Below, piece by piece: positions 26,187-53,804 of a DNA stretch of 64,000 nucleotides (its first letter is position 1; each line of letters begins with the position of its first letter). A program made the translations under genes and the position numbers. Origin of the DNA: Schizophyllum amplum. Taxonomy: Eukaryota > Basidiomycota > Agaricomycetes > Agaricales > Schizophyllaceae. The notes beneath the pieces are model-generated. The model was not told where the DNA came from. It saw only the letters and a list, made by a program, of their open reading frames with translations, and did no database searches. The stretch spans positions 1 through 64,000 of the forward strand of contig VDMD01000051.1 of assembly GCA_007026445.1 (NCBI GenBank). The letters are read 5' to 3'.

Positions 26187-27177
26187 CTGTTCATAAGTTA
26201 TATATCAGTAAGGAACGGGTTGCAGGGCGTAGTAACGCACCTGCAGCGCATGCGCGCCCTCCCATCTTCTACGTCGTCCGCTTTGGCGGGCTTGCTACGA
26301 CGCGTCTAACCGGTTGAAATTTTTCTTGTCGCTATATTGAGGTACGGAGGTCGACGGGCAAGGAAGGGGGAGGGCCGAGGGCAGCTGCGGCATCGGAATC
26401 GTTGTGGTTGAGAGTTGAGAGGTGGTGATTGCGAACGCGCGGGAGGTCCGGACCAGATTGCCGGTCTTCGCCGCCGACGCGCAAAGCGACCGCGGCGGGA
26501 TTTCGGAGGCCTCGGAGAAGGGATTTGAAAGCGGGACCGTGTAGAGTAAGGTTTCTAGTCGTGAATTCGAAAAACAGGCGTGAAATTCCGCTCAAAAATG
26601 AGCTCATAATATGTGTAAGTTCTGTTACAGTTCAGCTCATATTTCACTTCTGCAGAACTACATGTGTGGACCTTTCTGAGCTCCCACTTGAAGGTCTCTT
26701 CACAGTCAAAGTTGGAGCAGGTATCTGCATAGGTACTGAATAGACTACAGGTATCTAGAGGCTCTGAACTCGCTTGTATAAATCAGAGATGCATGTTTAC
26801 TGGCCTGGAGGAGTGATCTCTGAGCACTGCTAGACCATTGGGGTATGTTTCTGGTATGGATGCAGTACAGTGAGCCCACATACAATTACAATATGCTATA
26901 TCACGCTAACCTACAACATTTGAAGGCAATCGAACGAGGCGATGAGCAAGCATCGCGTCTTGTCTCGCCCCGAACGCGCTCGAAATGAGCGTGTTCGTGA
27001 CGTGACGTAACGCGTCAAGCTCGCCTCCCGCCGTCATCCGCGCCGCGCCCCCCGCTCAATAGCGGGTCGATGGGCGCTGTTTCTTCAAAAAATAGGGGTG
27101 CGGGGGACTCAAGGGAGTCCCCCTCAGGTGCGTGTGCTTAAAAATGAGCTGAACTCTCGCTGATTGTGTATCTAGAA
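26187..27177 (-). repeat. S repeat, full-length copy (minus orientation)
   Basis: 991 bp. Each end is an outward-pointing GT...AG segment: 26240 to 26187 on the minus strand (GTGCGT...AACAG) and 27128 to 27177 on the plus strand (CAG then GTGCGTG, branch-like GCTGATT, ATCTAG). Inside the second is the GGGGGACTC/GAGTCCCC stem. The 27-base palindrome with arms CGAACGCGCTC/GAGCGYGTTCG lies at 26971-26997, 180 bases from that end, as in the other copies. The middle is AT-rich and non-conserved; the far third is GC-rich. Confidence 0.7.
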
Positions 27178-28224
27178 ATGGCTGCAGCGTGCTGAGCGCG
27201 CTACAGCCATTTGTGTGCATGCGCCTCGTCTCCAGACGTCGCTAGCGAGGACATAAGCCGCCCCCCTCCCCCAACACGTCTCGGCGCGCCAGCGCGCTCT
27301 CCCAACGGCCCCCCATCATCAACCCCCACATGCGTGGCAGAGGACGCGCTTCCGCGCCGTCCGCTACGCCGCCGCGTGCCTCTGCGCCTATACAGTAGGC
27401 GTTGGGTACTGTGCACTATGCGCTGGCGGCGTCGGCGTGCGCGGGGGGCAAGAGACGGTGGCGCGATCGCGCGTTACGCAGCCACCCGCGCCACTGTCTC
27501 TCGAACCCCCTCCCACCCTCCCTGGCGCTTCACGCCCGTGCAAGCGCCCTCCTCTGCCTGCATTGGTCCCCCAGCCGTCAAGTACCATCCGCGCAGCGGC
27601 TGCGGCGCCGCTCGCGTCCTCCCGCTGCCGACAGCGCTACCCGCGCGCGCCCTCCGCATTCCCCTTTCATACGACGAAGCCTTCCCCGGGCTAGTCGGAT
27701 ATCTCCTATTACCTTCCCTCACCCTGGCATATACACACCACCCACGCACGGTCTTTTACGTGCCGTGCGCGCGCCTCCGAGTGCTGGCGAAAATTTTCGT
27801 CGCGCTTTAGGCGCTTTTTTTGCCGTATTATCTAAATATTGGGCCATTACATACTTTGTCACCCTTATATACACTCAATATATACGATCTTTATGACCTA
27901 CGAGCAGCCAGAGGCGGCACCAGCGGTGGGCGGGGTGCGCGCGCAAACCCGCGCGGGTGGCGATCGACTGTCTTTCCCAAACGGGAAGGGCCATCAATCC
28001 CGCCCAGCGCGCGCGGAGGCGAGCCGGGCACGCGACGCGAGCCGCGCGCCACCCCCTGCCTGATTAGGCGACCACGCGCGCACCGCCCGGCACGCCCCCG
28101 AAGGCCGGGACCCCACCGGAAGCCCTGGGAGGGGCCTGTGGCTGTGCGAGTAAGTCATTCACTATTTTTGCAATACACTGCCAAGCAGTTGCTTGGGTGT
28201 TTTGCAATAACCTTACGAGCACAG
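27178..28224 (+). repeat. R-type repeat, plus orientation
   Basis: The outward end is at 28224. A 75 nt GTAAGT...CACAG segment (28150-28224) contains the palindrome CAAGCAGTTGCTTG. Upstream come CTGTGGCTGTG, the GC arm with CCCAAACGGGA, the AT-rich spacer with TATATACGATC, and GGCGAAAATTTTCG at 27787. 27178-27480 matches the reverse complement of about 58380-58680 and begins with a hairpin AAATGGCTGCAGCG/CGCTACAGCCATTT. The TA at 27730-27731 is the empty site for the MITE at 57591-57740. Confidence 0.65.
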
Positions 28225-28233
28225 CTGCTGCAG

Positions 28234-29174
28234 CTACCGTATCTACACTGTATTCAGCTAAATGCTAAGGTTTTGAAAGTGAACACACCTGAGGGAGACT
28301 CCCCAGAGTCCCCCACGCCCCTTTATTGAAGAACCGGTGTCGATCGACGCGCTATTGAGCGCGCGGCGCGTCGAGGATGGCGGGCAAAGGAGGGTGCGAC
28401 ACGTTATGTCACGTCACGAACGCGCTCATTTCGAGCGTGTCCGGGGCGCGACATAACACGATATCCACGCATCGGGGACTTCGATCGCCCTAAAGCATGC
28501 TGATATCGTCTTATAAGACTTCATGACAAGTCTATGAGCCTTGAAATGGCAGCCAGAACCTCAAATTAGCTGGTGAACTCAAGAGCTACAAGAGTAGTGA
28601 GCTCTACAGCTCATCTATGGCTGAATCTCATCCATCTAGAGTAGACAAAGGTCAATTAACAGCTGTACTAGGCCTCATTATACTGTAAAGATCCATCCCA
28701 ATTTTGACTGTATCTCCTGGAAGATGTATAAGACCTGAACTGGTCAGTTCTTCGCTTAAGAACGAGTGGAATCTGGCACATACCTGACTGGCAAAGAACA
28801 GCCTTCATGACCTCAATTTTGAACGGAATCTTGTCGTATTTTCTTGTAAACAAGTCTTCCAATACTACTGTAGACGCACCGCTAGTCAAAATTGCGCCAG
28901 AACTCCTCTGAAAACACACCGGCAACGTGAAGTGCGTCGCCGGCAAGCGTCGGAGATCGGCCCGGAATGCCGAGCGACAGCGATCAGCGCCGTCGCGCCT
29001 TCCCCCATGGCCACGACGACCTCCTCAACACCCCCGCCTCCGTCTTCCATCAGGCACACCCGCGACGCCTCAAAACACGTCAAGGCGAATTTCAACGGCA
29101 GATACACGCTCTCGCGCACGGAATAGAAGTTGAAGCGCGGGATGCGCGCTGCGTGCGCGATCCCGGGAGGGACA
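28234..29174 (+). repeat. S repeat, truncated at its right end
   Basis: Starts with the minus-strand 55 nt segment (28288 to 28234; donor GTGTGT) next to the GGGAGACTCCCC stem, and has the palindrome at 28417-28443, 183 bases in (two mismatches). It keeps the terminal GC hairpin at about 29136-29166 but is cut by the R end at 29175 before the terminal intron-like segment. A minus-strand frame at about 28667-28860 resembles those in two other S copies. Confidence 0.65.
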
Positions 29175-29345: not shown

Positions 29346-29725
29346 CTGTACTGTTTCGACCGTAGGTTCATCCCATGTAACACGTTACGCTTTGAACTGA
29401 CCCCGATCCCAGTTCACGGGCCCGAAGGGCCCGTTACTGTCCGAAATTTTAGTTCATATATATTTAATTATGCTGCAAAATTTACTCTTTTACTGTACTT
29501 TTGACGGCCTGGGAGGTAATATATGGCTCAGAACAGGAGTAAATGTATCAAAATATGTCCCAAAACGACTTGAATGTGAGTAGGAAAAAAATGTCAAAAA
29601 TACGCGAAAAAATGAATATTCTGGACAGTGTTCACCGAGCGGCGTTATGCGTTACGCTGAGTGATTTAGTTCAGTTCAAAGGCCAATGTTACGTGTAACG
29701 TGAACTTATGGTCGAAACAGTACAG
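29346..29725. mobile_element. Tc1/mariner-type MITE, copy 2
   Basis: 380 bp, ends CTGTACTGTTTCGACC, TA duplicated at 29344-29345 and 29726-29727. The paralogous site at 52466-52467 lacks the element and has a single TA between the same flanks (GGCTGATAAAGCCAGA and ACCGCGGCGCGTGGCC), so the insertion is defined to the base. Interior AT-rich with a small ACGGGCCC/GGGCCCGT stem; no ORF. Confidence 0.95.
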
Positions 29726-30598: not shown

Positions 30599-30607
30599 CG
30601 CCGTCTG

Positions 30608-31698
30608 CTGATGTTGTTAGCGCTTGTTCTTAAGAAAGGGTATGATACAACGCACCTTTGGGGGGGCTCAGCAGGGCCCCATGTCCCCTGAGTTTACCCT
30701 TCTTCGCGTTGAGACTCGAGAGTTGATGACCTTGAGGACAGCAAGGGTGAAAGCGCGAGAAGGGGAGGGGACAGCGGGCGTGGCATTACGATCACGCGCG
30801 ACGCGCGTCGCTGTCCCCTGCGCGATGCGCACGGAGTCGTAGAAGAGAAGGGGAGGGGCACGGCGGCGGTGGGGGCACACAATGGGTCGTTGGTGGTGGC
30901 GATGGGTATGCGGTGTTCTTCGGGACCGCAAAAGGTGTTCTTTGGGACCGCACGGATGCCGGTCCGGGCCTCGGACCGACATCCGAGAGCCGTCCTCGTC
31001 GCCTTCGACGGTCTTGGGAACACCCCGTGATGTGCCTGATGATATTCTGAGACCTGTATCATGTCTAGATTAGACTAAATACCCACCTTGTAAATTTTGA
31101 AGGGAATCGAACGGTGGGAAGGGGGTGATGTAGTGAACGAGTTGGATAGAGGGAGTATTCCAGCTCTTTTGCACGTTAGGCGTCTCGAGCGAGGAGCCAT
31201 TCTCAATCATTCCCTGCAGGCCTTTCCCTTCCAACTTTTACAGACTCATAGCTGATTTAGGTATGCATATACTGCATGTACCATGGCTGTACTAAGGGGC
31301 TTAGATGTGTAAGATCAAGCATGTTAGCCAGGAGGCTACACTGAATCTGCCCTATGTAATCGTCTCAGGTCTGTATACTACATTTCAAGTTCATCCAAGA
31401 CCAATGGTTGACTATATAGTAAGTTATACACTTACTGGATACCTATCTCTAGTGATTATGGTAGTCGATGGGCCACATCGCCCGCCCGCGCCACCGAACG
31501 CGCTCATTCGGACGCGTTCGTGACGTGACGGTCACGACCATCCTCCTCCTTGACCTCTATCCCGCCGCCGCCGGGTCGCCACAAAACGCGCCAAAGGTCA
31601 GGAATACGAAGGGAATTGGGCCTAGGGGCCCCATAGGTGCGTTGACTAGCTATATGGCGCGTTGATAATGCTGATATTTTGCCTTTTTCGGTGTGCAG
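30608..31698 (-). repeat. S repeat, full-length divergent copy (minus orientation)
   Basis: 1,091 bp. Outward segments are 30655 to 30608 (minus strand, GTGCGT...CATCAG, 48 nt) and 31637-31698 (plus strand, ATAG then GTGCGTTG, end GTGCAG, 62 nt). The palindrome at 31495-31520 is degraded by one base in the loop but lies 178 bases from the right end as in other copies. Contains a TGTTCTTYGGGACCGCA direct repeat near 30910-30955. Confidence 0.55.
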
Positions 31699-32379
31699 AC
31701 CTGAGCGGCCGCGCACGCGTTTGCGCCGCCTCAGAGAGCCCCTCCACCGTGGCCTCTACCATCTTCGCCCACAGTGAGGTAGGGGACAACGCTGAGGGGC
31801 CCACTGAGGCGATGTGAACGCGCGCGCAGCCACCTTCGAGCTGCACAACGCGGACAGACGTCAAGGCCGCAAGGCGCTGGCAGCGTCCCCATCCCTCCCC
31901 AATGGGCGCTCACAAATCGCTCCATGCCCCCCCCCCATACCCAACCCACTCATCAACCGCCGCGCGCGCCCTCATCCGCATCACCTACTCGCATACACGC
32001 GCGACGAGGCTAGTGACGCGCCCAGCGCATCTCAGCCCCCCTCAAACGTTTGTGCGACCCCTCGGGTCGCACAACGTATGCGTTGGTATGGCCAGTATGC
32101 GAGAGTCGCAGTGACGGCTACGACTGCGGTGGCGGTAGCGCGAGCGGCGCCGCGTGCATACCCGTGCACGACGGGCACGTCACCTTCACGCTTCGGCGTG
32201 GAGTCTGGCGCGGCGCGCGTGTGCTCTCGTGCTGGCTGCTACCGCAGCGCTAGCTACTTGTCCGGCCGCACGCGTGCCAGCCGACACGCCCAACGGCACT
32301 CTCCCGCCCCTGCCCCGATCACGCCGCCCATGCGCAGTGCATGTGTCTTGCGGCACAGCAATGTGTTTTTCTCGCGCAC
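31699..32379. repeat. R-like GC-rich flank
   Basis: GC-rich sequence with the family's compositional look but no R terminus I can place; no gene. It ends abruptly at 32379 where the 1,940 bp inverted repeat begins. Confidence 0.4.
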
Positions 32380-34319
32380 ACTACACGCGAGACACAAAAA
32401 GCTGACCCTGTTTTTTGTAAACTGATAGAAAAAGCTAACATAATTTAGTATCACAAAAAACCCAGCAGCCAGTAGGTTTTTGTGATGGATGCTGCTATTA
32501 CCTTTAAACTTACCAGCCTATAATATTCAGCAAAGGGCTTAAATGATAATATTCTCAAGGCCTTACAGGGAGTTTCAACTGCCTTGTTAACCATATATAT
32601 CTGTATATAAACATCTATATTTGTATCACAATATATAGACTGACTTAACAAAAAGCTTGATTCCATTACAAAAATCCTTTGATAATTATAAAAAGCAACT
32701 ACTTTTCACAGTGCTAGTTTATTGTAATAGAAAAATGTTTAGCACTCACAAAAAACTGGTTTACAAGCTAAAGCTTTTGATAAGGACAATCATGTTTTTG
32801 TAAAACTGACTGAGGATTTTGTGAATAGCTCTCAGTATATTGTAAAGGGCTATTTGCTTTTTGTGATTGTATATGAGGTTTTCGTAAGTAGTCCTCAGAG
32901 TTTTGTAAGGCATGATGAGCTTTTCCTTAAGATATGCCAGTTTATTTTATTGCTATGCTGGATTTTTGTGTCATACTAGTTGTGTATTGCATGTTTCATT
33001 ATACTCACTCAAGCCTAAGCCTTGGTTAAGCTTTCACATGCTCAAGTGCAGGGCAAGGTTTCTTGGTAATTTCCGAAAGGTTGCATAGGCACCTTGTTAG
33101 GTCTGCTGGATGATGGTGGAGTGCTGTGGCAAGCATGATTAATCAGCACACAATGCAGCAGCAGAAGTGGGACAGATGCTATCTCATTAGCTCTAGAAAT
33201 ATAATAGATACAAGCTTAGATCATGTTGACAGCTCATTGACCATAAACTGCAGCTTATTGACAAAGATACACTACCCTGATAATGCTACACCAGATGTTC
33301 TTAGCAGTAGGACAGAACAGCAAGATATCAAAAATCGAGCCCGTGCTTCAAGCCCTCTTAAGCCCTATCTAGGTGGCCAGTTGCCAATTGATGTTTACCA
33401 CCTGACAATTGCCAATTGCCAACTGTCGATTGCCGCTTGACAGTTGCCACTGACAATTGACGTTTGTCAAGTGACAATTGACGTTTGTCAAGTGACAATT
33501 AATGTTTGTCAAGTGACAATTGACATTTGTCAAGTGACAATTAATGTTTGACACTTGCCAATTGACATCTTCTACTTGCCAATGACCAGTTGTCAATTGC
33601 CAATTGCCAATTATGTCAATTGCCAATTGCCAATTGACAATTGTCAGTTGCAGCCCGTGCCCGTGCCCGTGGTCCTTGGCCCTCGCATGGTTTGTGTCTT
33701 GTGATAGACCGAGCTCAAATGTATTATAGATAGTGAGCGGACTGGAAACATCTGTGGTATAGGTCAGAAAAGGTGCCCGGGCCCAGGGAGTCTGGGGCAG
33801 GGAACCAGTCAAGCAGGAGCGGAGACGCAAGGGACGAGAGCGGGAGCGGGAGCAGGAGCGCACGCAGGAGCTAACAAACGAGCGTAAGTATAATATCTGG
33901 AGCAACGTCAGTAAGGTAAAGAGACTGTAGGCAGACGGGCACATACTCCTCAGTGGTGGTTAGACACTGAGGAGTTGCGTCATCGATCGGTAACAAATAT
34001 AGAAGTACAGTAAACAACAGTAAACTACGCATGTCCTTGTCCCAAACGGGTATAGTAAGTACAATGGCCGTCAGTCTCTACAGGGAGTCCCAGAATGTCG
34101 AATTGGGAAGGTCGCTGATCATCAGCGGTGGCAGTGTCGGGTGTCCAAAAATTTTCTTTGTCAGTGTCTCATCCGTGTTCTTGTCTTGTCTCAATCAGGT
34201 GAGAATGCAACCTTCACTCAGCTGCAGGGTCTTGGATCCCGCCCACTTCTTGTCCTCTCTGCTGCTCTGTCAGCATGACTAATGATCTGTGTAAACGACC
34301 ATGTAAGAGGCTCCGCTGT
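32380..34319 (+). repeat. 1,940 bp inverted repeat, left arm (element E)
   Basis: Reverse complement of 36919-38858; both arms have exactly the same length and all compared segments are identical. The outer end is ACTACACGCGAGACAC. The first 600 bases carry about 14 scattered TTTTTGTRA or TCACAAAAA words, like the subterminal transposase-binding repeats of some DNA transposons. Then come a CAATTG-rich minisatellite and, near 33970-34200, sequence with no ORF above background. No terminal inverted repeat or target duplication was found. Confidence 0.85.
33373..33653. repeat. CAATTG minisatellite, left
   Basis: About 280 bases with 13 CAATTG palindromes. The middle is a tandem 21-mer (TTGTCAAGTGACAATTGACGT and one-base variants, five copies from about 33465); the ends are shorter TTGCCAA/TTGTCAA words. 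Each unit is itself a near-palindrome. Confidence 0.9.
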
Positions 34320-36155: not shown

Positions 36156-36593
36156 AACCTTCTTCCCATCTCATTGAGCCAAGCCCGGTCCACCTCACCG
36201 CAATCCCGTACTCGCCTCAAGTTGCCATCTTGTCAGGAGGAGCAAAGGTAATATGTCTGATGGAGGTGCTATTGTAGTATACAAAGGACATGGCAAGGTT
36301 TGTGTCCGTGTGCCAGCAGGAGAGATCCAGATGTCTATCCTTGCACACCATAGCCCACAAGATCAGGGTGATGGCCTCTCTGCTTCTCACCTGCTCACAC
36401 ACAGCTATCAGATTATTCTGTCCTCTTGCAAACCTTGTATCTTGCTTTCACTCATCTTTGTGAGACTTCATCTAGAAAAGCACCTGCACTATAGTATGCT
36501 ATGGTAGGATACGGCTACTAGGTAGATCTACGTAGGAGACATGATCCTGTCCAACCTATATAGCTGGCATAGTACATATAGCTCTCTGTGAAA
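36156..36593. other. Non-genic stretch
   Basis: Mixed-composition sequence between the LTR-like end and a partial E copy. One open frame at 36253-36507 (+) has no motif I recognise and is not called. Confidence 0.4.
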
Positions 36594-36917
36594 AGTAGTT
36601 GCTTTTTATAATAATAAAAGGATTTTTGTAATGGAATCAAGCTTTTTGTTAAGTCAGTCTATATATTGTGATACAAATATAGATGTTTATATACAGATAT
36701 ATATGGTTAACAAGGCAGTTGAAACTCCCTGTAAGGCCTTGAGAATATTATCATTTAAGCCCTTTGCTGAATATTATAGGCTGGTAAGTTTAAAGGTAAT
36801 AGCAGCATCCATCACAAAAACCTACTGGCTGCTGGGTTTTTTGTGATACTAAATTATGTTAGCTTTTTCTATCAGTTTACAAAAAACAGGGTCAGCTTTT
36901 TGTGTCTCGCGTGTAGT
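36594..36917 (-). repeat. Partial third copy of the E terminus
   Basis: Repeats the terminal 324 bases of E in the same orientation as the right arm (compare 38535-38858), including the end CTCGCGTGTAGT, with a few differences near 36620. It abuts the inner end of the right arm with one G between them, so E ends have been joined tail to tail. Confidence 0.85.
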
Positions 36918-36918
36918 G

Positions 36919-38858: not shown

Positions 38859-39082
38859 GGCAGGAGCTCCCATTATACTACGTTCCTCATCTCAGCAAGC
38901 CCCCTCCCCTCCCCCGAGCAACGCAAGCGCATCAGAGGCGAGCAAAAATTTTCGCTCGCCTTTTTTTGTGCTTTGTAGTGTTCTCCCTCCCTCCATACAC
39001 CTATATACGGTACTATGTACTTACTATATACATAATATGTGTTCCTTTTGATTTTACGTGCACCCGACGATGCGCGGCACAG

Positions 39083-40094: not shown

Positions 40095-40127
40095 AGCTTC
40101 AGGGCGCTGTAGAGCGCCCTGAAGCTA

Positions 40128-41112: not shown

Positions 41113-41283
41113 ACTACCTCGCATCCGCGTTCGCGGCTAAGAACCGTGCGGGCAAACGCGCACTGACTTCAAGCGCCCCGACAACGCCTACGTCGCCTCC
41201 ACAGATGTGAACGAGGGCGGAATCGGCCGCTTTGGGAGGCGGCTGGCGCCGCCCCTCACCCACGCCAGGACCCAATAACCCAG

Positions 41284-42193
41284 CTGATGTCGTAAAGCTT
41301 TTGCAAAAAAATATGGACTTTATTGGGGCTCGAATTGCAAATCCTATGGACCTCAGCCCGGCCGTATTCAAAAGCAATGGGAGGGTTTACCCACACAGCC
41401 ACCTACCCCTCCCGGGCCTTCCGGAGGGGGTACTGGCTCACGGGGGGCTTGCCGAGCCACGAGCCGTGGGCAGCCCTATTAGGCAGGGGCCTGCGGGTCG
41501 CTCGCCGCACACCCGGCTCACTGCCACGCCTCGCGTGCACTGCTGACCGCCTTCCCGTTTAGGCGATCAGCGCGTTCGGGGCGTCGCGCGCGCGCGCGCC
41601 GCAGCCGCTAGCGCTGGTGCTGGTCGCGGTCACTGTGGGTGCTTGTATGTCGATAAATCTTGTATATTACCTGAAATATGCATAGATAATATGTATGTAA
41701 GGGGAGATATGCGAAAAAAACACGTAAAAACGCAATAAAAATGTCGCCGGCGCGCGGCGTGCTCGTTGAGTGAACGAGGGCCGCGCGAGCGGACCTGCGC
41801 ATGTGCAAGGTGAGGAGGGGGTGTGTAAGGCCGTACCCGCCACCCAAGGATACCGAGGTGGCGGTCACCGCGGCGAGAGGGCGGTGGCGCGATCGGCGGC
41901 GCGAGCAGCTCTGCGCGAGTGCCAGAGATTGCTTGCGACGCTTCTGCAAGAGCGCTGCTGGGCGCATTGCAGCTCGTCTACCGTTCGACCGAGCCGCGCG
42001 TGCCCCGCCGTCGTGACCCGAGGGGGTTGGGTGTGGGTATGCGCTGGTCGGCTCGCCGGGTTTGCGCCGCGGGGATGCATCCTTGTGTTCACCTTCTTCA
42101 TAGGCATTTGGAGGTGGTAGGGGGCGAAGGGGTGACCCAGCGGATAGCGCGCGCGTCGCACAAGAAGGCACGAGTTCCCGGTCAGCTGATGTC
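41284..42193 (-). repeat. R-type repeat, minus orientation, long terminal segment
   Basis: The outward end is 41284 (minus strand ...TTTACGACATCAG). The matching donor is probably GTAAAC at 41390, giving 107 nt rather than about 75. The GC arm carries CCCGTTTAGGC; the AT spacer and a degenerate AAAAATGTCGCC box follow at 41650-41745. 170 bases of unmatched DNA lie between the S end at 41112 and this end. Confidence 0.55.
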
Positions 42194-42768
42194 GTACCCC
42201 TATTGTAATACATCCCGGCCACTATCGGGGGGCTTATTGCAACACTTACGGTAAGGTCATCGGGCCCGGCAAACTCCGGTCTGCCAGCGAGCGCGGGTGT
42301 TCAGGGCCTTCCGGATTAGGATACGGCTCGCGGAGGGCTGCCGGGCGAGCACCCACGTGCATCCCGTTTGGGCAGGAGCACGCGGGTCGCCCGCCGCGCG
42401 CTCCGAGCGCCTTCGCGCGCGTTGGGCGGGATTGATGGCGCGTCCCGATTGGGAAGGGCGGGTGATCGGCGGGCTCGAGAGCGCCGCGCGCGCACGCCGC
42501 CGCTGCCGCTGTCGCTCCTGGGCGCTCGTAGGCGGAAGAATTCGATAATATTATGAACTATATACAGATAATGTAGGTATGCAGGGGGGGAAAGGGCGCA
42601 TATACGGAAAAAGCGCTGAAAAGCGCGCACAAAAAATTTTCGCGATCGCGCAACGCCCTCGCTGGCTGGGCGAGCACGCGTACGCGTCATTGGGAAGGGG
42701 AAGATGGTGAGGGGGGGGTGTTTGAAACAGCAAGCGAGCTTGCAAGGAGCTCACTGCGCGGCGCGCGC
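42194..42768 (-). repeat. 575 bp inverted repeat within R, left arm
   Basis: R-type copy nearly identical to the reverse complement of 45108-45680. It contains AAAAAATTTTCGCGATCGCG and an AT spacer around 42545-42580. Differences seen are one C/T (42292 region) and an 8-versus-9 G run near 42711. Confidence 0.85.
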
Positions 42769-43398
42769 GCGCGGATGGCGCGGCGGAGCATTTGCGCGGC
42801 GGCGATCGGGCGGCGGCGGACGGCGGACGGCGGACGGGAGCGCGGGCGATCGATGCATAGTGGCGTGTAATGGATGGTGTACGAGCTCAGGAGAAAGCTC
42901 GTTGTGCGAGATGGGGAAGGGCGCAGCAAGCGGGGTGTGGGGTGTGGGGTGTAGCGCGGCGGAGGCGCGGGCACAGCGATGGCGGCGGGGCAGCGGCATG
43001 AAGCGCCGGCAGCTATGCGCCCGCTGCCCTCGTCATGCCGCTGATTGACTTGAGGCGCGCGGCGTGGTGGGTGGCGCGGGTACTGGCAAGTACGTAGGTG
43101 ATCGCCACGCCCGCCCTCGCTTGCAGAGGGACCCGCCGACGCTGCAAGCCGGCCCATACCTTTCCCTACCCGCCTCAGTCCTCGAAGGACAAGCGGATGG
43201 CGAGATATGCGTCAGAAGGCGAGCTAATGCTCGCCTTCATGACGGGTATGGGGTGGGCGACGGTGTGCGCGCGGCGCGCTTGCGATTGCGCTCGTGGGTG
43301 GGGGGATGGGTCTTGTAATACGCCCGGGTAGTCGTACATCTCCTATGAACGATGTTTGAATGCAAGAGTAGCTGCAGAGCGCTTGTGGCGCTCTGCAG
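42769..43398. repeat. R-type GC-rich body and hairpin
   Basis: GC-rich continuation with the CTACCCGCYTCRGTCC..AAGCGGA block also seen at 10430 and 49700. It ends in a 16 bp hairpin CTGCAGAGCGC/GCGCTCTGCAG at about 43371-43398 which abuts the next S copy. Confidence 0.5.
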
Positions 43399-44392
43399 CT
43401 ACTCGCTCTACGTTGTTTTTAGCTTTTTTAAACGATGCTGTCAATAAAGACGCACCTGAAAGGGACTCCCCTGAGTCCCCGCGCCCCATCGCCGAAGGAA
43501 TGGCGTCCATCGAAGCGCTATTGAGCGCGGCGTGCGTCGCGGATGACGGTGGCAAGGGAGACGATCGCGTTATGTCACGTCACGAACGCGCTCATTTCGA
43601 GCGCGTTCGTGGCGAGCCATAACGCGATTCCCGGGCATCGAGGGCCCCGATCGCCCTCAGACTGCGTAGATCTACATCGGTATATCATGTTTATTAGTAC
43701 ATGTGGTTTATGTCAGGCTAATGGGCTGGGAATATACCAGAATGTCACTAAGATACTCAAAGGACACTCTCCTCACTTGTAATTCAGCTTCATTTGTCTC
43801 GTCTGAAAGAATAAAGACATAAAACAGGTCTGTATATACTTCATAAGAGCTATCTAGATATGCTCCACTACTGACTGTATCTGAGGCCTCAGATGGTGGC
43901 CCAGAAACCCTTGACCTCTCCCTTATGAACTAGAGAAATCTACACATGAGCCTACACACATTTTCACTTCATATCTGTATGAGTTCATGTTCAATCCATT
44001 TTTCGCTTCAGGGATCTATAAGTTCAACATCCCCCATCACACTAAAGGTCTTCAATTGGACTCGGAAGTCCTCCGGACTGACGAGGACGTCGCCCAACGC
44101 GTCGGCGGCGAGGGTCGGCAGCCCGGCCCGGCTCGCCGCCGGTGCGCGATCGCCACCTCTCGACCTCTGACCACCACCATCCCGACCCCGCGGCTGCCCC
44201 CTCCCCCTCCCCATCCCTCACTTCGACCCCCGCGTACCTCAATCAACGTGAAATTCAGATATCACCGGCTGTGCGATGCATGACGAGCCCAACGACGCGG
44301 ATGGCAATGCAGGAGGGGACTGCGCACGGACGCGCCGCAGGTGCGTGACTACGCCCTGCGCTACTTTCATTACTGACTTATATATGTTACAG
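43399..44392 (+). repeat. S repeat, full-length copy
   Basis: 994 bp. Left outward segment 43455 to 43399 (minus, 57 nt), right outward segment 44341-44392 (plus, 52 nt: GCAG then GTGCGTGAC, TTACTGACTT branch-like, GTTACAG). The palindrome at 43583-43609 is perfect and extends imperfectly to a TTATG/CATAA base. The GACTCCCCTGAGTCCC stem lies just inside the left segment. Confidence 0.75.
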
Positions 44393-45107
44393 ATGTCGAT
44401 AATTTGCTCGGTGAGCGCGTCGCGGCGGTCGTGCGAGCGATCGGCGCCCGCGCTCGCTCCTCCACCACTGATCAACCACGCCCCGCGCGACATAGGCTAC
44501 GCGCGGCGCGTCCAACCGCTGCTGAGCAGCCATGAGCTCCCGCCCTCCGCCCCTCCCTCCCCTCTCCCCACATTGCCCGCTGAGCGCCCCGGCGCCCTCC
44601 AACAAGGGTAACACCGCTTGAGGTCTCACCGCACTGGGACCTCGCGGTGCAGACCTTACTTGGGGTCAGAGCACCTCAGCGGGCTCTACAAGGGAGCGGG
44701 ATGAGCGTGCTGCTGGCGCGCGGCGCCGGCGCCGACTGCGAACGCAGCGTAGTGGAGCAGCAGGCGTGTGGCGCGCGTACGCGCCACATCGCCTTCGCCC
44801 TCCACCGCGCCCCTGCTATTCAAGATGACCATACTCGGCATCGGAGCACGGGGCGTCGACGGCAGCGCGCTAGGACACGTCCTGCAGCGTCCGTCGCGCG
44901 ACCCAGCCCGTCGACCATTTGCTACAGCCGCGCCACCCGCCTGCTGCGCACCCCCCAGCCCCCATGCTGCGCGACGAGCCCTATCGCGGGCTCGTCTCCG
45001 CCTACATCGATTTTGAACGCCCCGCACCATTCTCGAATGGCGCAGCCCCCCGCGCGCCCGCGCGCCAACCGCAATCGGCAATTGCGCCCCCACCCCACCA
45101 TCCCGCG
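44393..45107. repeat. GC-rich DNA between S and R copies
   Basis: About 700 bases of GC-rich sequence without a recognisable gene or module end. Long frames exist on both strands and reflect composition. Confidence 0.4.
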
Positions 45108-45688
45108 CGCGCCGCGCAGTGAGCTCCTTGCAAGCTCGCTTGCTGTTTCAAACACCCCCCCCCTCACCATCTTCCCCTTCCCAATGACGCGTACGCGTGC
45201 TCGCCCAGCCAGCGAGGGCGTTGCGCGATCGCGAAAATTTTTTGTGCGCGCTTTTCAGCGCTTTTTCCGTATATGCGCCCTTTCCCCCCCTGCATACCTA
45301 CATTATCTGTATATAGTTCATAATATTATCGAATTCTTCCGCCTACGAGCGCCCAGGAGCGACAGCGGCAGCGGCGGCGTGCGCGCGCGGCGCTCTCGAG
45401 CCCGCCGATCACCCGCCCTTCCCAATCGGGACGCGCCATCAATCCCGCCCAACGCGCGCGAAGGCGCTCGGAGCGCGCGGCGGGCGACCCGCGTGCTCCT
45501 GCCCAAACGGGATGCACGTGGGTGCTCGCCCGGCAGCCCTCCGCGAGCCGTATCCTAATCCGGAAGGCCCTGAACACCCGCACTCGCTGGCAGACCGGAG
45601 TTTGCCGGGCCCGATGACCTTACCGTAAGTGTTGCAATAAGCCCCCCGATAGTGGCCGGGATGTATTACAATAGGGGTACAGCATAAG
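45108..45688 (+). repeat. 575 bp inverted repeat within R, right arm, with R end
   Basis: Mirror of 42194-42768 (identity ends at 45680), followed by an outward end ...GCATAAG at 45688. A GTAAGTG donor at 45625 would give a 64 nt segment. Then unmatched DNA runs to the S copy at 45955. Confidence 0.75.
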
Positions 45689-45954
45689 GTGTCCCGGTGC
45701 AAGGGGTACTCGAGCGCCTCTTTGTACGGCGGCTCACGCGTCTGCTGGGTGCTGGGCACGTGGATAGAAAGGGACGGGGCGTGGCGGGGGGTGTCTTTAG
45801 GGCGTTCCAGACGCGCTTGGCCTCGAGCGGGCGGCGCGCGTACGCCCGGTCGTCGTTCAAGGGACGTGGGTGCGGGGGCGGGTGCCGTAGGTGCCTGACG
45901 CGTTTGAAGCGCGGCGAGGCCCCCGCCCCCGCCCCGTTCGTGTTCTAGATAGTT

Positions 45955-46944
45955 CTATAACATATATTAGTCAAATACAAGATGCAGCGCATCAGCACGC
46001 ACCTGCTGCGCGGGATCGCGCACGCAGCACGCATCCCGCGCTCCCGTTCTTCCCCCGCGTGTTGCAGCGCGATTTTCGAGACAGTCAAGCGCTGTAAAGC
46101 CTTTTAATGGCTCGTTCATGGACTTGGAGAAGGACAGGAGGCGGCGGGGGCAACCGAAAGGCCGTGGTGGCTGAGGGGAAGGGCGAGAGGACGTTGATCG
46201 CATCTGTTCGGTGCCTCGGACCGATCGCCGAGGCTCGCCGGTGACGCGCTCGACGTCCCCAGCGTGTTTTTGGAGGTGTTTGGGACCTATTTTGACGCAA
46301 AGTTTGTGTAGAGTACAGTATACATGCTTGATTACAAGAAAGAATGGCGAAATTCCATTCAAAATCGAGGTCATAAGTGCCGTTTTCAATGGGACAGGTA
46401 TGTCGAATATTCTTCTTGTTCTTCAGGCATACACCCTCCATATCACCCTTTATATATCAAGTAGGAGATACAGTCAAAGCTGGTATAGATCTGTCTATGT
46501 TAGCTATGGTATATAGAGGTACTTTAAGGACAGGAAATGGCATAGATGAATAGGATTAGAGCTCACAGTCATTGGGTGGCTGGCTATGCTTGAGAGTTAT
46601 GAGGTTTGGGCCCTTACTTTACATACTGGCTGCTCAGTAGAAGCTGATCTACATTATTTCAGATGTATTATAGCGTTATAGAGTATTTCCAAGGCGATCG
46701 CGCCCCCCGATGCGTGAGCATCGCGTTGCGTCTCGCCGCGAACGCGCTCGAAATGAGCGCGTTCGTGACGTGACGTAACGCGATCTGCTCTCCTTCCGCC
46801 GCCATCCACAACACGCCCGCCGCTCAACAGCGGCTCGATGGGCCCCGTTTCTTCAGGGGTACTGGCGGGGGACTCTAGGAAAGTCCCCCATAGGTGCGTC
46901 GCTATTGACAGCGCCAAAAACAGCTAAAAACAAGTGGGATATAG
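45955..46944 (-). repeat. S repeat, full-length copy (minus orientation)
   Basis: 990 bp. Outward segments: 46002 to 45955 (minus, 48 nt) beside a long GC hairpin at 46003-46052, and 46894-46944 (plus, 51 nt: ATAG then GTGCGTCG, GCTAAAAAC, GATATAG). Perfect palindrome 46739-46765, 179 bases from the right end. Outside the right end is the hairpin CTGCAGGGCGC/GCGCCCTGCAG (46948-46975). A plus-strand frame at about 46330-46500 (IPFKIEVISAV, SSRRYSQSW) parallels the minus frames at 28.7 and 50.4 kb. Confidence 0.75.
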
Positions 46945-48319
46945 CAGCTGCAGGGCGCACATCGCGCCCTGCAGCGTTATCTGCGGGTTTTCAGCGCCCC
47001 AAGTGCCGGGAAAACGCACTACGACACTATACCAAAGCCCCCGCTGCGCGCGCCCACGGCCCCGCCGTCGCCATCGCTTGCCGCCATCCACCCCATGCGC
47101 GTTGGGCAGGTGGTCTTGCGCCCGCCTTCTGGCATGCCCCCTCCCCCCCGCCACGTCCGTATAGGACCTCCGCATGTGGGGAGGATGTACGCTGGCCGTT
47201 AGCGATGGCGAAGCCCTCTGCAAGCGAGGGCCCGTGCAACGATCGCGTGCGCACACCACCCGCGCCACCCGCTCCCCCTCCCGCCATCGTCGTTATGCTG
47301 CCGCTGCATGCCTCGCGCAGCGTCCCAGCATGGCGACTGAGGTGTGCGTGTACGCGCCAAGGCCATGCGCCGCTGTCGCTGTCGCTGTCACCGCCGCGCC
47401 TGCACCCGCACCATACCCCCGCCCCCGGCCCCGGTCCCCCTTCCCGCGCGGCAAGCCCTCTCGCGGGCTCATTCGCTATCCATCTCCCCCTACGGACGTC
47501 ACCACCTGCGTAGACCAGCGATGCGCCACGCACACGCTCTCCGCCGCCGTCGCCACCGCTGCCGCCGGGCCCGTACGTGTGGCACAGCCACCCGCGCCGA
47601 TCCCGCGTCCCGCGCGACGGGCCCTCTATTGGGCTCGTCCGCTCGACATCTCGCCCCAGCACACCCCCACCTCTCTAGAACAGCGACGCGCGTGCGCTTT
47701 CCCCCACCCGCGGCGATCGGCCCGCACGCACGCCGCGCCGCGCCGCCCACCCGCTCGCTTCCAGCACGACGAGCTCCTCGGCGAGCTTGTCTGCTGGTAG
47801 TATATATCCCCTCCCCACCCCCTCTCTATGCAACGACGCGTTCAGGCGCTCGCGCGGCCCCCGTACACCGAGCGAGCGCCCGACGCACTGGCGAAAATTT
47901 TTAATGCGCTTTTCGCGCCTTTTTTGTATATATTACCCACACTATGCCTGTATATACACATTATATATACAATACATACTTTTTGATTGAGCTGCAAGCG
48001 ACCGAGAGCGCCAGCGGCGGCGGCGCAGTGCGCGCGCAGCGCCCCCGAGCACGCTGATTGCCCGCCCTGCCTAAACGGGAAGGCGGTCAGCATCGCACGC
48101 ACTGCGTGGCGGCGAGCCGGGCGTGCGAGGCGAGCCACCCGTGGATACCTGCCTAATCAGGCTGCCTAGGGGTGGTGGCCCAGTGAGCCCCCCGTGAGCC
48201 AGTGCCCCCTACGGCACGCCCGGGAGGGGCAGGTGGCTGTGTGGGGAGGTGGTCCATAGGATTTGCAATTCAAGCCCCAGGCAAGTCCATCATCTTTTGC
48301 AAAAGGGCTACTGCTACAG
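46945..48319 (+). repeat. R-type repeat, plus orientation
   Basis: GC-rich body, GCGAAAATTTTT box at 47892, AT spacer with TATATATAC near 47930-47985, CCTAAACGGGA arm, CTGTGGCTGTGTGG-like block near 48230, outward end CTACAG at 48319. The donor has decayed (no clear GT at the expected position about 75 nt upstream). Confidence 0.55.
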
Positions 48320-48888
48320 GTGAATAACCAACATAAACCCCCCCTGCATTGCCCTCGCACGTGCATACGCGCGTCGGGGGGAAAGCCGCTTCGAGTACCC
48401 ATTGCACCGGGAATTCGCGGCTCTCCCCTCGGCAAGCGTGTATGCGTAGGCGCTCTCCCGGCACTCGAACGCGCACAGGCAAGCTGTGCAGACCATCGGC
48501 ACACTGGGGCAAACCCCACAGGCCCCCCCGCCTCCACACCTCCCTCTACGCCCCCACGTTGCAGCGTGTAGGCACTGTTGCGCGTAGCGCAGGAGCCGGC
48601 GCAAGGGCGCTTGGTATCTGGGGCGCGTGCGCGCTTACGCGCTCGGGAGCCACGCCACAGCCCATAGATACACCATCCCCGCCTCCTTCATGTACCTAGT
48701 ATTGTCTGCACACCCACACGCGAATTGCAGTGCATGCATAGTATCAATGTACGCGCACCCACCACGCCAACAAAAAAATTTCGTCGCGCTTTCTGCGCAT
48801 TTTTTCGTGTATTAAACCCACCCCAACATTAAATACATGTCTCGCCCTAATTACATCATTTTCACAACCCGCCAGCAGCGAGAGGCAG
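48320..48888. repeat. DNA between two R ends
   Basis: About 570 bases bounded by inward-facing R ends at 48319 and 48889. GC-rich, with one AAAAAATTTCGTCGCG box at 48772. No gene. Confidence 0.4.
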
Positions 48889-49912
48889 CTGATGTGGTAA
48901 GACAATTTAAAAGGAACCCGATAACTGACTGACGGTCAGTTGAAAAGGAAGCGACAAGCTCACCACACAGCCACCGGCCCCTTCCGGGCCTTCGGGTGGG
49001 GGTCCGGCTCACCGGCGGCGTGGTGAGCCATCGCCCGTAAACGGCAGGGGCACGCGGGCCACCCACCGCACACGCCCGGCTCGCCCTCGCGCCCGCCGCG
49101 CGCCTTCCCGTTATGGCAGGGCGGTTGATCGGCGCGCTCGGGGGCGCTGCGCGCCACCGCCGCCGCTGCCGTCTTCCCCGTTGCTCGCCTCTAGGTGTAT
49201 AAAACGGTTATATATAAGGTGAATAGCATGTACATAATGTAGATAAATGTAAAAAGGCTGTAAAAAGAAGAGGAAAAGCGCGTGAAAGCGCCGCGAAAAT
49301 TTTCGCGGTTGCTTTGGGGCAGCGCGCGAGATGTGCAGGTGGATGCGCGGGTAAAGGGTACGTATGGGGAATAGGCTAGGTGTAGGGAAATGGAAGGCGA
49401 GCCTGTAAATGGGCTCGTCACTGCGGATTGGGGGTGGCGCGGCAGGGTGGCGCGGCGCGGGGATGGCGGAGAACGGCGGGCGGTGGGCGGCGAGGCGCGT
49501 GCGCGTCCTGCAGCGTCAGCGTCAGGCCTTGATGACGCTGGTCCCATGAAGGGAAAGCGGTGGGTGCCGTATTGACGGCGCGGTGGGGCAGACGAGGAGG
49601 TGGCGTGAGTGGCGCGGGTAGCCGTTGCGCACCCAATCGTAGTGCCCATCCTCGTTTGCAGAGGGTGCGAGCAACGCTGATGCCTAGCGCATACTCCCCC
49701 CTACCCATTCCGAGCCCGCTAGGATGCTCTTAGAGGCGGGGGAGCGCGCGCTAGCCAAACAGGCGCGCGGACGGGGACGGCGGGGGTTGATGGATGCGCG
49801 GCTGTGTGCGTGGGTAGCGGTCGTATCGAGGGCGCTTGAGACTTGATCCTGGGGTGCCTGGAGGTAGCCGTGAGATGTTGGATATGCCTGCAGAGCGCGC
49901 GCGCGCTCTGCA
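48889..49912 (-). repeat. R-type repeat, minus orientation
   Basis: Outward segment 48963 to 48889, 75 nt, GTGAGC...CCACATCAG, with palindrome ACTGACTGACGGTCAGT. Then the usual arm (CCCGTTATGGCAG), AT spacer (49195-49250), GCGAAAATTTTCGCGG (49292), GC-rich body, and a hairpin TGCAGAGCGCGCGCGCGCTCTGCA at 49889-49912 abutting the next S copy. Confidence 0.65.
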
Positions 49913-50901
49913 CTGTAGAAACATATTTAGCATGTCTGTTTTGTGCCGTCAATGACCACGCACCTATGGGGGACTCCCCCAGAGTCCCCACTTCCCGGCA
50001 ACGACAGAACTACGCCATTTCGCTCGCTTTTGAGCAAGCGGCGCGTTGATCTCGACGGCGAGAGAGAGAGCGACGCGTTACGTCACGTCACGAATGCGCT
50101 CATTTCGAGCGCGTTCGGGACGCGACATAGCGCGTTCCTCACCTGCTGCCACCTCAGATCGCTTCGTATCTCCTATATACCACTAGGTTACACTGAGAAG
50201 TAGTCATAATGTCCTTTACTAGACGGCCAATGCTTCACAGACACTGTAAAGTGCAAAGACTACCGAAATTTTGAGCCACATCAGCAATCTATGTCTATAT
50301 CTGGTTCATCTAGAGAGCTCCATGGCTCACAAGTACCTGTAATAAGCCTTAATACAATGTATATACTCATCCCAGCTTTGACTGTATTCCCTCCAGGTAG
50401 TATAAGGCCCGATATGGCTCCAGTATTCGTTATGAACAAGTGGAATATTGACCATCCCTTTCCCAAGAATAATGGCACTTATAGTCTCAGATACGAACGG
50501 AATTCCCTGTTTCTTTCCTGTAATCTCGACTAAATACATGTACTCTACTAGCTCCTCAAGACAAAAATGCGCCTAGGTGCTTCCGAAAACCCGCCGGCAA
50601 CGTCTAGCGCATTGGCGGCGAGCGTCGGAGATCGGCCCGACATGCCGAGCGCGCACAATCAGCGCGCTTTTATCTCGAACCTCGACCACCACAGTCGTCC
50701 GGTTGCCCCCGCCGCCTCGCCGCCCTTGACAGCCCGTCGCGCAAGCCATTGCGCTCCTCATCCTCAAACTTTCGCCGGAAACCTCAAGCTTAAGGCGATA
50801 TATTCGAAGCAGAGCGCGGGATGCGCGTTGCGCACGCGATCCCGCGCTGCAGGTGCGTGGCTACGTCCAACAGTCTGCGTGATTACTGACTATTACTTTA
50901 G
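49913..50901 (+). repeat. S repeat, full-length copy
   Basis: 989 bp. Left outward segment 49963 to 49913 (minus, 51 nt, ATAG then GTGCGTGG, CATGCTAAAT, TTTCTACAG). Right outward segment 50853-50901 (plus, 49 nt, CAG then GTGCGTGG, TTACTGACT, CTTTAG) beside a GC hairpin at about 50814-50846. Palindrome at 50091-50117 with one mismatch. GGGGGACTCCCCCAGAGTCCCC stem inside the left end. Confidence 0.75.
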
Positions 50902-53804
50902 CGTATCTACGCTACTGTGGGGCGGGTGCGAACAGCGCCTACCGTGTCATAGACGCGGTAGGCGCTTTCACGCCCGCCCTGCCCCTACACCCACGACCGG
51001 ACGCCGCGTACAAGCCACGCAGGCGCAAACGCGCCCAGCGCGTCCTCAAGAGTCATCTCGGCCGCATCGCTACCACCACCATCTCCTCCTCCCCATCTCC
51101 ATCCCAGGTCGCAGCTGCGTGCGCAGGCGTCGTGCGAGGGTACGCTTGAGTACCCCTTGCACCGGCGAACTCGCGGCCCCGAGCGCGACGCCCCGCAAGC
51201 CTCTGTAGCCTGGACTCGCCCTTCATCGTCCGCCACGCCTATCAAGCATCGGGGCAGCAAGACGCGGCTTTCCCGGTGCAGACACGCTGGCCCGCCCACG
51301 TCCCCTGCTCCCGCCGCATACAGAGCACACACAGCCAGATTGAGCAATCAACTGGCTGCTATGTTGTGTTGCGCCAGCGCGTTCGCCGTCCGGGGCGGCG
51401 CTTACAGGGCCAGCGATCGCACGGGGGCCGCATGCGTCATTGCCGCGCCGCCTCCTGCGCTGCTACCCTGACCAGCGACGAGCCCTTCCCTGGGCTCGCC
51501 AAGGGCGGAAATTCTCTACCACCACGCCCATGCACCCTTCCCCGTTCCTTTTCGCTTGCCCGTTCGCGCGCCGCCCGTCCCACGGACGCGCCGCGGGCGC
51601 GTAAAATTTCATTCCACACCCCTTCTTCAAACACTTTCCTCCCCTTGCATTTGTACATACACCCTACATATAATCTACTTAATTTACATCTTTTCTTTGA
51701 CCTATGAGCGATGAGCGGCGGTGGCAGCAGCAGCGGCGGCGGTGGCGTGCGCGCGCGAGCACACCGATCGCGCCCGTGCCCAAAACGGGAAGGCGATTAG
51801 GTGCACACGCGGGCACGAGGGCGAGCCGGGCGTGCGCGGCGAGTAGCCTGCGGGTCCCTGCCTGTTTAGGGGCGATGGCTCGGCAGTCACCCGTGAGCCA
51901 GAGCCCCCTCCGGGATGCCCGGGAGGGGTCTGTGGCTGTGTGGTGGGCCTGTCGCTACCTTTTCAACTGACTGTCGGACAGTTATCGGGTTCCATTTAAA
52001 ATGTCTTACCGCACCAGGTGCGAGAGGAGGGGCAACGGCAGCGCGCGCGCGCACACAACGTCCCCCGAGCACGCCGATTGACCGCCGTGCCCAAACGGGA
52101 AGGCGGTCGAGGCCGCATGCGGCGGGCGGCGGGCACGGGAGCGAGCCGGGCACGCCAGGCGAGCCGCCCGCGGGCCCCTGCCTAAACGGGCGGTGCGCTC
52201 GGGATGTCCCCCGAGCCCGGAGCCCCTGCCGGAAGGCCGCCGGGGGGCTGTGGCTGTGTAGGTAAGTGATCCGAGGACTTTTCAACTACTTGATGGACAA
52301 CTGTCCAGGGTCTTTGAAAAGACCCTACCGCCACAGGTGCGCGGCGGCGGTGGCGGCAGGCGCGACGCGCCCCGCACGAGTTGGTGCGTCGGTGTGATGT
52401 CACCCGACAGCGCATCAGCGGGCACGCGAGCCTCCCGACGCGTCGGGAAGGCCACGCGCCGCGGTTATCTGGCTTTATCAGCCGTCGGTGCCCATTTTGG
52501 GCATCGCCCGGCACCCCGGAGGACAGCGGCGGGCTCGCGGATCGGCATCTGCCGACCCCGTGAAGTTCACGTACAGATTGCAAGATGGGTTATGTAAATC
52601 CGGGGTACAGCAAAAGGTGGGCGGGAGGTGCATACCGACCCCTTGCACATCGTTACTTTACTAACATAATCAAAGGACTGCGTAACATACATAGGGGCAA
52701 GTGTGGGGGCAACACCACGCTTCAAACGCGGCGGACATCGACTGCCTGTCCCACCCCCCTTCGACAATGCCGGTATGCGCGTGCGCAAACCGCGAGGAGC
52801 CGTACGCCATAGTAGGCGCGTACGCAAGAGGTCCTACCACCACCCTCCCTCCAACCCTTTCCATTTACTCCAGCACCCAGCAGCGCGCAAGGCGCTGTGC
52901 AGGAGGGCGCTCGAGTACCCCTTGCACCGGGAACTTGTGCCCTCTTGCGCGGCATCCGTGCGTTCTGCTGGGTCCTTTTCCCCATTTCCCATCGCCCCCC
53001 ATGTACCATGGCTATTCCGCTTTACACACCACTACCTGCCGACGCCGCGCTCGCACCTCTATTACACGTGCCTCCCGCGCCGTCTTCTTGTTCCGCACGA
53101 CGAGCCCTTCCCCGGGCTCGTCCGCTCCTACCATGACCTCAGGCCCCCCCTCCCTCTCGCAGGCAGCCGCACGCTGCCACTGCGCCATCCGTAGCCGCTG
53201 CGATCGCCGCGCACGCGCAACCACGCCGGGTCTCGCCCCCCTCCCTCCTGCTCGCAGACGAGCCCTTCGAGAGCTCGTTTCTTGAGTAGAGCGCTCCCCT
53301 CCCTCCCTCCCTTCACTGTGACGCACACACGCACGCTCGCCCAGCGCAGCGCGCCAGCGAAAAATTTCGCAGCGCTTTTTGCGGGTTTATCGTGTATTTC
53401 CCCCTCCCCTCCCTCTGATTAGCTATTACATATGTAGATACTGTCCAATACACGTGTTTTTACCAACCCCCGAGTGACCGGGAGCGCTAGCGACGGCGGC
53501 GGCGGGTGCGCACGACGCCCCCGGGCACGCCGATCGCCCGCGAAGCCCAAACGGGAAGGCGATGCGGACTGCACGTGGTGCACGGCAAGTGCGAGGGCGA
53601 GCCGGGCGTGCGCGGCGGGTGACCCGTGAGCCCCTGCCCTATTTGGGCTGCCTAGGGGTGATGGCTCGGCAGCTCGCCGTGAGCCAGGGCCCCTGCCGGA
53701 AGCCCCGGGAGGGGGGTGTGGCTGTGTGGGGTAGGGGTCCCTGGCTTTTGCAATTCGTTGCTCGGAAAAGTCCAGGTACTTTTGCAAAAGCTTTACTGCA
53801 TCAG
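50902..53804 (+). repeat. Tandem R-type repeats, plus orientation
   Basis: Four R ends follow one another: 52017 (segment 51942-52017, 76 nt), 52336 (52262-52336, 75 nt), 52616 (variant, donor GTACAG at 52571) and 53804 (53731-53804, 74 nt, donor GTAGGG). Each except the first starts with GTG directly after the preceding CAG. The unit 52018-52336 is only 319 bp and resembles 39083-39420 in reverse. The unit 52337-52616 contains the empty TA site (52466-52467) of the MITE at 29346-29725. AAATTTCGC boxes lie at about 51602 and 53360. Confidence 0.65.

Follow-up and report, generated by a model that had tools for sequence, protein, structure and literature searches.

The window and its S repeats

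We analysed a 64,000-nucleotide stretch of Schizophyllum amplum DNA (contig VDMD01000051.1, here C257, bases 1-64000; hereafter the window), part of a genome assembly of 49.65 Mb in 309 contigs. The window holds several copies of S, a repeat whose two ends resemble introns pointing out of it on opposite strands; five of the six full copies lie in recognised mobile elements, one of which is split by a separate element with KDZ transposase exons (Table 1). A first reading made from the letters alone (the sequence-only reading) had described six full copies and a truncated one with a shared design, and all were located in the window at the places claimed. The copy ends that it gave also held, except at the right end of S26187, where the AG ends at 27175 and not at 27177. 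Across the 49.7-Mb genome we found about 80 copies of S, and all of the S interiors tested (33/33) fit a single profile. We refer to the end adjoining a GGGGACTC..GAGTCCCC hairpin as the A end and to the opposite one as the B end. A genome-wide pattern search for the A-side hairpin plus donor returned 76 places, with none in the reversed control.

S is the centre of a transposon

The sequence-only reading had taken S to be bounded by the acceptors of its intron-like segments. Copies stay alike beyond these points, for about 1 kb each way and up to terminal repeats, so that S is flanked by arms that belong to the element itself. The arms end in terminal inverted repeats (TIRs) of about 240-650 bp, the outermost bases of which are CAGCTG or CACCTG. 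Aligning the copies and looking for target duplications, as that reading had suggested, placed the ends about 1 kb outside the acceptors, with 7-bp target site duplications (TSDs) at these outer positions.

We assembled 32 end pairs from a profile of the ends, an end-pattern search and flank comparison; the 20 pairs fetched for the duplication check include two outer pairs chosen as likely nested (C57:52270-58457 and C1:2148381-2154840). The TSD was perfect (7/7) in 29 of the 32 pairs and matched at 6/7 in two, while one pair, on C223, failed; among 992 mismatched pairings, none reached 7/7 and 2 reached 6/7. Polarity was the same in 32/32 pairs, each having one CAGCTG end and one CACCTG (30) or CACCTT (2) end. 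The end-pattern search found 101 places, compared with 10 in the control. Among the matches listed (100 of 101), all 23 adjacent left-right pairs spaced 3.1-4.5 kb apart contain the S block, which lies 38-64% along the element, and 21 of these pairs measure 3.1-3.6 kb. By these sequence criteria, S is the centre of a transposon, mostly 3.1-3.6 kb long, and not a free element.

Protein-coding arms were rejected for the one subfamily tested: in six diverged comparisons, 2 to 7 of 22-32 gaps were multiples of 3, and mismatches were spread about evenly over the three codon phases, with no clear bias. We likewise discarded a second intron across the terminal repeat, from a GTAAGT present in some copies to the CAG that closes the element, as copies do not share its donor. 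Four copies (L013, L016, L018 and L030) form a long-armed subfamily, with an A arm of about 1.4 kb ending in GCAGCAGCTG. They keep the core and the CAGCTG end; their subterminal sequence is unlike other terminal repeats, indicating that the core has a wider distribution than the terminal repeats.

Judged by eye, S does not keep one orientation to the CAGCTG/CACCTG polarity in all subfamilies. At the inner TIR borders (42630-42660, 45230-45270 and others), a palindrome like CGCGAAAATTTTCGCG recurs, with GCGC..TTTTT and AT-rich sequence after it. This palindrome, some hundreds of bp from each element end, resembles cell-cycle (SCB/E2F-like) sites.

The ends of S carry predicted introns

In the six full window copies, read outward, 12/12 end segments begin with GTGCGT directly after AG and reach a terminal AG 48-62 nt on, as the sequence-only reading had described. 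For the genome-wide comparison, A ends were picked by the interior profile only, without use of the donor (33 distinct ends), and B ends by the core profile (29 ends). That reading had pointed to drift of the donor bases among genomic copies as something to check; a GT donor was kept in 33/33 A ends (27 GTGCGT, 4 GTGTGT, 2 GTGCGC) and in 29/29 B ends (26 GTGCGT, one GTACGT, one GTGTGT and one disrupted GTCGCA, in L013).

We applied a strict intron test (CTRAY with the first AG 6-28 nt downstream of its branch A, and an overall length of 38-75) to non-redundant sets of 29 A ends and 25 B ends and compared the outcome with 1000 shuffled sets; because the shuffles ignore relatedness, the resulting figures measure likeness to introns and are not probabilities. 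The test was passed by 20/25 B ends (shuffled mean 2.6, standard deviation (s.d.) 1.5, maximum 9) and by 14/29 A ends (mean 3.8, s.d. 1.8, maximum 11). With a relaxed branch word, the counts rose to 24/25 for B (5.8 in shuffles) and 23/29 for A (8.5). The branch A of the strict word lies 33-40 nt from the donor in 20/25 B ends versus 0.6 in shuffles, and in 13/29 A ends versus 0.8. The CTRAY-like branch word and terminal AG that had been described as often present are thus far above shuffled expectation genome-wide. Donor, branch word and acceptor are kept in the right order and at the right spacing even though median core identity is 57%, and as a family the end segments have the geometry predicted for spliceosomal introns (GT donor, branch site, AG acceptor).

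In one further copy, L014 (C121), the 3' end of the B intron has taken up an element with KDZ, and the terminal CAG of this insertion would replace the displaced acceptor.

Hairpins and a near-invariant block mark the core

The GGGGACTC..GAGTCCCC hairpin, in predicted A-side exon 1, stops just 5' of the donor in nearly all of the 33 copies. The GAGTCCCC stem that the sequence-only reading had set against one donor therefore stands for the A donor, apart from S30608, whose donors adjoin hairpins other than GGGGACTC..GAGTCCCC. The GC-rich hairpin that it had placed at the other donor is strong at only 11/29 B donors, so it is no general feature of S. A second hairpin, absent from that reading, starts at the A acceptor (CTGCAG..CTGCAG; CTGCAGNGCGC..GCGCNCTGCAG). 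In 27 aligned copies, 89.4% of cells of this acceptor hairpin pair, and two-sided changes occur in 10/15 pairs. These two-sided changes number 39; shuffling the partners gave 13.2 (s.d. 2.7), and sliding them gave no more than 10.

Median pairwise identity in the core alignment (34 segments from 33 copies) was 0.57. A 44-bp block with TGACGT repeats, a palindrome and TGACGTGACGTAACG is near-invariant (43/44 columns at least 90%, one at least 80%) in copies collected partly via a stretch containing it, which favours its conservation. The block lies slightly more than 110 nt inward of the A hairpin. A search for the near-invariant inner block gave 90 places genome-wide, with 0 in the reversed control; at 71 of the 90, the hairpin and donor follow 60-180 nt further out, almost always at 111-119 nt. 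Among the 19 places with no hairpin match, four are the palindrome read backwards, 31 nt from an opposite-strand block, and several others have a hairpin spacing outside the fixed pattern. An exact match to the conserved block was absent from viral and prokaryote collections. bZIP factors bind TGACGT-like words.

S-elements share their ends with KDZ transposase elements

The KDZ transposase family gave 77 genome matches, many of which are exon pieces. Two of this genome's KDZ transposase elements have S-element ends: C280:114453-127454 (13,002 bp; TIR 278 bp; TSD CATGGAG, 7/7) and C121:9334-26044 (16,711 bp; TIR 271 bp; TSD CATAAGT, 7/7), with TIRs 96-97% identical within the element. In Pfam searches, their KDZ exons scored E 1.3e-32 and 8.8e-33 and their CxC2 exons 5e-38 and 1.6e-38, respectively. 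Both also have TET/JBP-like open reading frames (ORFs), which resemble one in the window KDZ element 11256-25644 and for which Pfam listed nothing at 0.01. C121 holds one S-like stretch, at about 12.8 kb, either native or nested.

In the available portion of PMC8290104, an element counts as non-autonomous if it has duplications and structural features but lacks transposition domains; when the autonomous family is known, the TIR and duplication of that family serve as the criterion. We followed this usage for S-elements. They share terminal repeats with C280 and C121, a perfect 7-bp TSD was found in 29/32 S-type pairs and in both autonomous elements, and S-elements have no transposase of their own (as seen in one subfamily; the KDZ gene in the window is a nested insertion). 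Since their ends are those of KDZ/CxC2-bearing elements, we assign S-elements to the non-autonomous KDZ-type transposons.

Distances of 10-13 kb between S and KDZ domains were considered as a sign of linkage and rejected, because C266:760909-764030 is a complete S-element in its own right, apart from the KDZ domain near 749 kb. At another locus, L047 (C266:236 kb), an S core with A hairpin, donor and AG has no recognisable terminal repeats and lies 12 kb from a KDZ domain; terminal repeats were not found in C266:221-239 kb. Rfam families were dismissed as an identity for S, the window yielding only two tRNAs at gathering score.

Outward transcription as a model for S

Taken together, these observations lead us to favour, with moderate confidence and on the strength of sequence features, a reading in which S is the conserved centre of non-autonomous KDZ-type transposons and probably a two-way promoter for two outward, once-spliced RNAs. 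The TGACGT block of the core would act as a promoter in both directions, and the two outward non-coding RNAs, each losing one short predicted intron, would run through the arms to the terminal repeats. Promoter-proximal splice sites would keep transcription going both ways, and both terminal repeats would stay transcribed and open to transposase from KDZ elements. As the terminal repeats are inverted, the outward RNAs would carry them in one sense only; each would have a single repeat copy, so no long double-stranded RNA would form, and the hairpin RNA of a single through-transcript would thereby be avoided. The sequence-only reading had a leader spliced onto flanking DNA. With the element ending about 1 kb beyond S, the predicted leader would instead join the element's own arm and not host DNA.

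We entertain only tentatively a more far-reaching version, which we think rather doubtful: that S is a selected, self-spreading RNA cassette in which a two-way promoter and introns drive same-sense RNAs through the ends, keep these ends open and avoid a silencing hairpin, the cassette being the constant unit passed between subfamilies with different ends.

Several results weigh against the promoter model. The strict intron test was failed by 15/29 A ends and 5/25 B ends, the relaxed one by 6 A ends and 1 B end, and part of the donor or the AG is lost in some copies (L016 B, L013 B). As the copies are related, the shuffle comparison overstates their independence, and no intron-less version of S was found in a search with two exact patterns. 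Further pair types in the acceptor hairpin numbered 18 versus 17.5 for shuffled partners, which is no excess, and the palindromes at S could work as DNA. The TSD is missing in one of the 32 end pairs (C223) and in the separate pair 9439-53807. Finally, the 13-kb KDZ element C280 is without an S core, so S is no needed part of an autonomous element.

Three other explanations were weighed. The same lack of a core in C280 speaks against the possibility that the end segments and hairpins are DNA-level signals, namely binding sites for a transposase or replication factors, with only an incidental likeness to introns. The hairpins are near-perfect palindromes, one nested element sits in or beside such a hairpin with the TSD CTGCAGC, and a protein might bind the donor octamer AGGTGCGT. 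However, branch word, spacing and AG are kept while the intervening sequence largely is not, most clearly on the A side, and about 1 kb separates the segments from the ends that a transposase would bind; we therefore rate this explanation as improbable. Somewhat less improbable, though still unlikely, is that S is a relic that once supplied an ancestral KDZ gene pair with its divergent promoter and first introns and has been kept by descent and recent amplification without present function. The KDZ and TET-like ORFs are indeed divergent in both autonomous relatives, with a short shared intergenic stretch that has several TGACG words in C280 and few in C121, and splice signals are lost in some copies. 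Yet with median core identity at 57%, the donor, the branch spacing, the A-side hairpins and the 44-bp block have been kept; the covarying hairpin suggests ongoing selection or repair, and the core of the S26187-type element has no similarity to C280 at E 1e-5.

The original proposal of a free mobile element that ends at the acceptors and splices its leader onto flanking DNA is, in our estimation, barely tenable. In its favour, the window copies cease to look alike at the acceptors, whereas between copies the flanks are homologous out to the terminal repeats, with 7-bp duplications there. The acceptor flanks have no shared duplication (by eye), and S lies inside 23/23 simple end pairs among the matches listed; homologous flanks and TSDs at the outer ends contradict this proposal, and we rejected it.

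Nested elements and other features of the window

Several S-elements of the window are nested in one another (Table 1). Element 39080-52339 contains both 41281-48322 and 48886-52020, and the truncated S copy has element 10685-28227 within or next to its A hairpin. An uninterrupted copy of element 10685-28227 (C257:88247-91390, 3144 bp) matches the two outer parts of that element at 99% identity, with an overlap of 7 bp. The KDZ region 11256-25644 is therefore an insertion of its own, nested in the S-element; this rules out 10685-28227 as one 17.5-kb autonomous element holding S. The insertion has CxC2/KDZ transposase exons (KDZ domain 13161-13547; CxC2 E 1.1e-25) and a TET/JBP-like ORF (20362-21027) with a weak Tet_JBP match (E 0.19). 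Its left terminus is CACCAGTGG and its right terminus is not TG, with only subterminal similarity between the ends. A single outer element at 9439-53807, which is outside the 32 pairs, is doubtful, with a TSD of 1/7.

Other features were also noted. A 1941-bp inverted repeat of 100% identity (32379-34319 and 36919-38859) surrounds 2.6 kb and looks very recent; 36586-36918 is another copy, of 333 bp. Short inverted-repeat insertions at 29346-29725 and ~19430-19790, with ends like GTACTGTTTCGACC and GTACTGTACCGGCATGACC, are probably miniature inverted-repeat transposable elements (MITEs); the one at 29346-29725 splits a segment whose inverted copy is 52341-52599. A second copy of the S26187-type A arm and terminal repeat occupies 57145-58677, inside which two tRNA-Ser(CGA) genes (57952-58278) lie in a 98% identical tandem duplication. 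A Copia-type gag ORF spans 60386-61492 (PF14223, E 3.2e-9), with short repeats at 56804, 60156 and 61578.

Table 1. Mobile elements, S copies and predicted features of S in the window.
Feature	Position	Strand	Basis or remarks
S-element, core S26187, ~3.1 kb without insert	10685..28227	.	TSD CTGCAGC 7/7; split by KDZ element 11256-25644
Nested KDZ element, 14.4 kb, not part of the S-element	11256..25644	-	TSD TCGCGAG; breakpoints and 7-bp overlap
Outer S-element, core S40128	39080..52339	.	TSD CGCGGCA/CGCGGCG 6/7; TIR 90% over 312 bp
S-element, core S45955, split by nested 42183-45691	41281..48322	.	TSD AATAACC 7/7; CAGCTG/CACCTG ends; TIR only 68%
Complete S-element, 3509 bp, core S43399	42183..45691	.	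TSD TCCCGGT 7/7; TIR ~650 bp at 95.7%
Complete S-element, 3135 bp, core S49913	48886..52020	.	TSD CGAGAGG 7/7; TIR 79% over 297 bp
Truncated S copy, end ~29020	28283..29022	-	donor GTGTGT; element 10685-28227 in or beside its A hairpin
Diverged S copy, both intron-like segments	30608..31698	.	terminal repeats not recognised
S core of element 42183-45691	43399..44392	.	copy comparison; core and end profiles
CTGCAG hairpin at A acceptor, start of predicted exon 2 (S43399)	43368..43402	-	covariation, 27 copies
Near-invariant promoter-like block GAGCGCGTTCGTGACGTGACATAACG of S43399	43568..43593	-	conservation; 90 genome places versus control 0
Predicted A-side intron of S43399, 57 nt	43399..43455	-	GTGCGT, GCTAAA, terminal AG; strict CTRAY test failed
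Predicted B-side intron of S43399, 52 nt	44341..44392	+	GTGCGT, TACTGAC, TTACAG
Predicted A-side intron of S40128	40128..40179	-	strict CTRAY test failed
Predicted B-side intron of S40128	41062..41112	+	donor, branch and AG signals
Predicted B-side intron of S45955	45955..46002	-	donor, branch and AG signals
Predicted A-side intron of S45955	46894..46944	+	strict CTRAY test failed
Predicted A-side intron of S49913	49913..49963	-	strict CTRAY test failed
Predicted B-side intron of S49913	50853..50901	+	donor, branch and AG signals
Predicted B-side intron of S26187	26187..26240	-	outward donor and terminal AG
Predicted A-side intron of S26187	27128..27175	+	donor, branch and AG signals

Comparison with known systems

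MITEs and internal-deletion derivatives are non-coding, share terminal repeats with the elements whose transposase moves them in trans, and are usually conserved mainly at their ends; non-autonomous DNA transposons are usually seen as two ends plus filler. In S-elements, by contrast, the centre is conserved too, being common even to a subfamily with other subterminal sequence, and it combines splice signals on both sides with a hairpin that covaries and a block resembling a promoter. Should the predicted RNAs exist, S-elements would provide a case, open to direct test, in which selection favours transcription of a transposon that seemingly makes no protein, and one of how inverted-repeat elements might avoid double-stranded RNA.

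Introners and introner-like elements are mobile DNA with splice signals, the introner itself being an intron inside a gene. S-elements differ in having two predicted outward introns at the centre, with their own core and arms as exons, and are not introners in this sense. Helitrons make no target duplication and end in a 3' CTRR after a hairpin; we rejected this class, as S-elements have 7-bp duplications and TIRs. A hAT7 assignment, considered because of 7-bp target duplications, was also set aside: the partner elements carry KDZ and CxC2, and Pfam showed no hAT domain among nine ORFs.

In the available portion of PMC12810828, KDZ1, KDZ2 and KDZ3 of Cryptococcus neoformans are of the KDZ/CxC kind, 9-11 kb long and bounded by 139-241-bp TIRs, dimensions comparable to those of C280 (13.0 kb, 278 bp). 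They differ in their target duplications, of 8 bp (KDZ1) and 4-8 bp (KDZ2, KDZ3), and that portion makes no mention of a non-autonomous relative with an S-like core.

Within the titles and abstract openings of the Kyakuja, Dileera, Zisupton and KDZ literature, a scope that excludes subscription papers and Repbase/Dfam, no S-like core is described. The sequence-only reading had known of no fungal repeat with this layout; this stands for the core in the searched literature and falls for the terminal repeats, which are shared with KDZ elements. Kyakuja, a group of the KDZ superfamily in Agaricomycetes, comes close: according to the available text of PMC12730594, its elements have 7-bp target duplications and 5'-CA..TG-3' termini, both of which S-elements have. 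It also reports, for Agaricomycetes, KDZ elements that carry TET/JBP genes, as in the weakly TET/JBP-like ORF here. S-elements have no transposase and have a conserved core that this text does not mention. In the same text, the two Laccaria families are said to be without TIRs, whereas the TIRs of S-elements measure about 240-650 bp, and we thus file S-elements as KDZ-type and not as Kyakuja proper. With the element boundaries corrected, S-elements add KDZ-type elements that combine 7-bp duplications with long TIRs, unlike the two described Kyakuja families.

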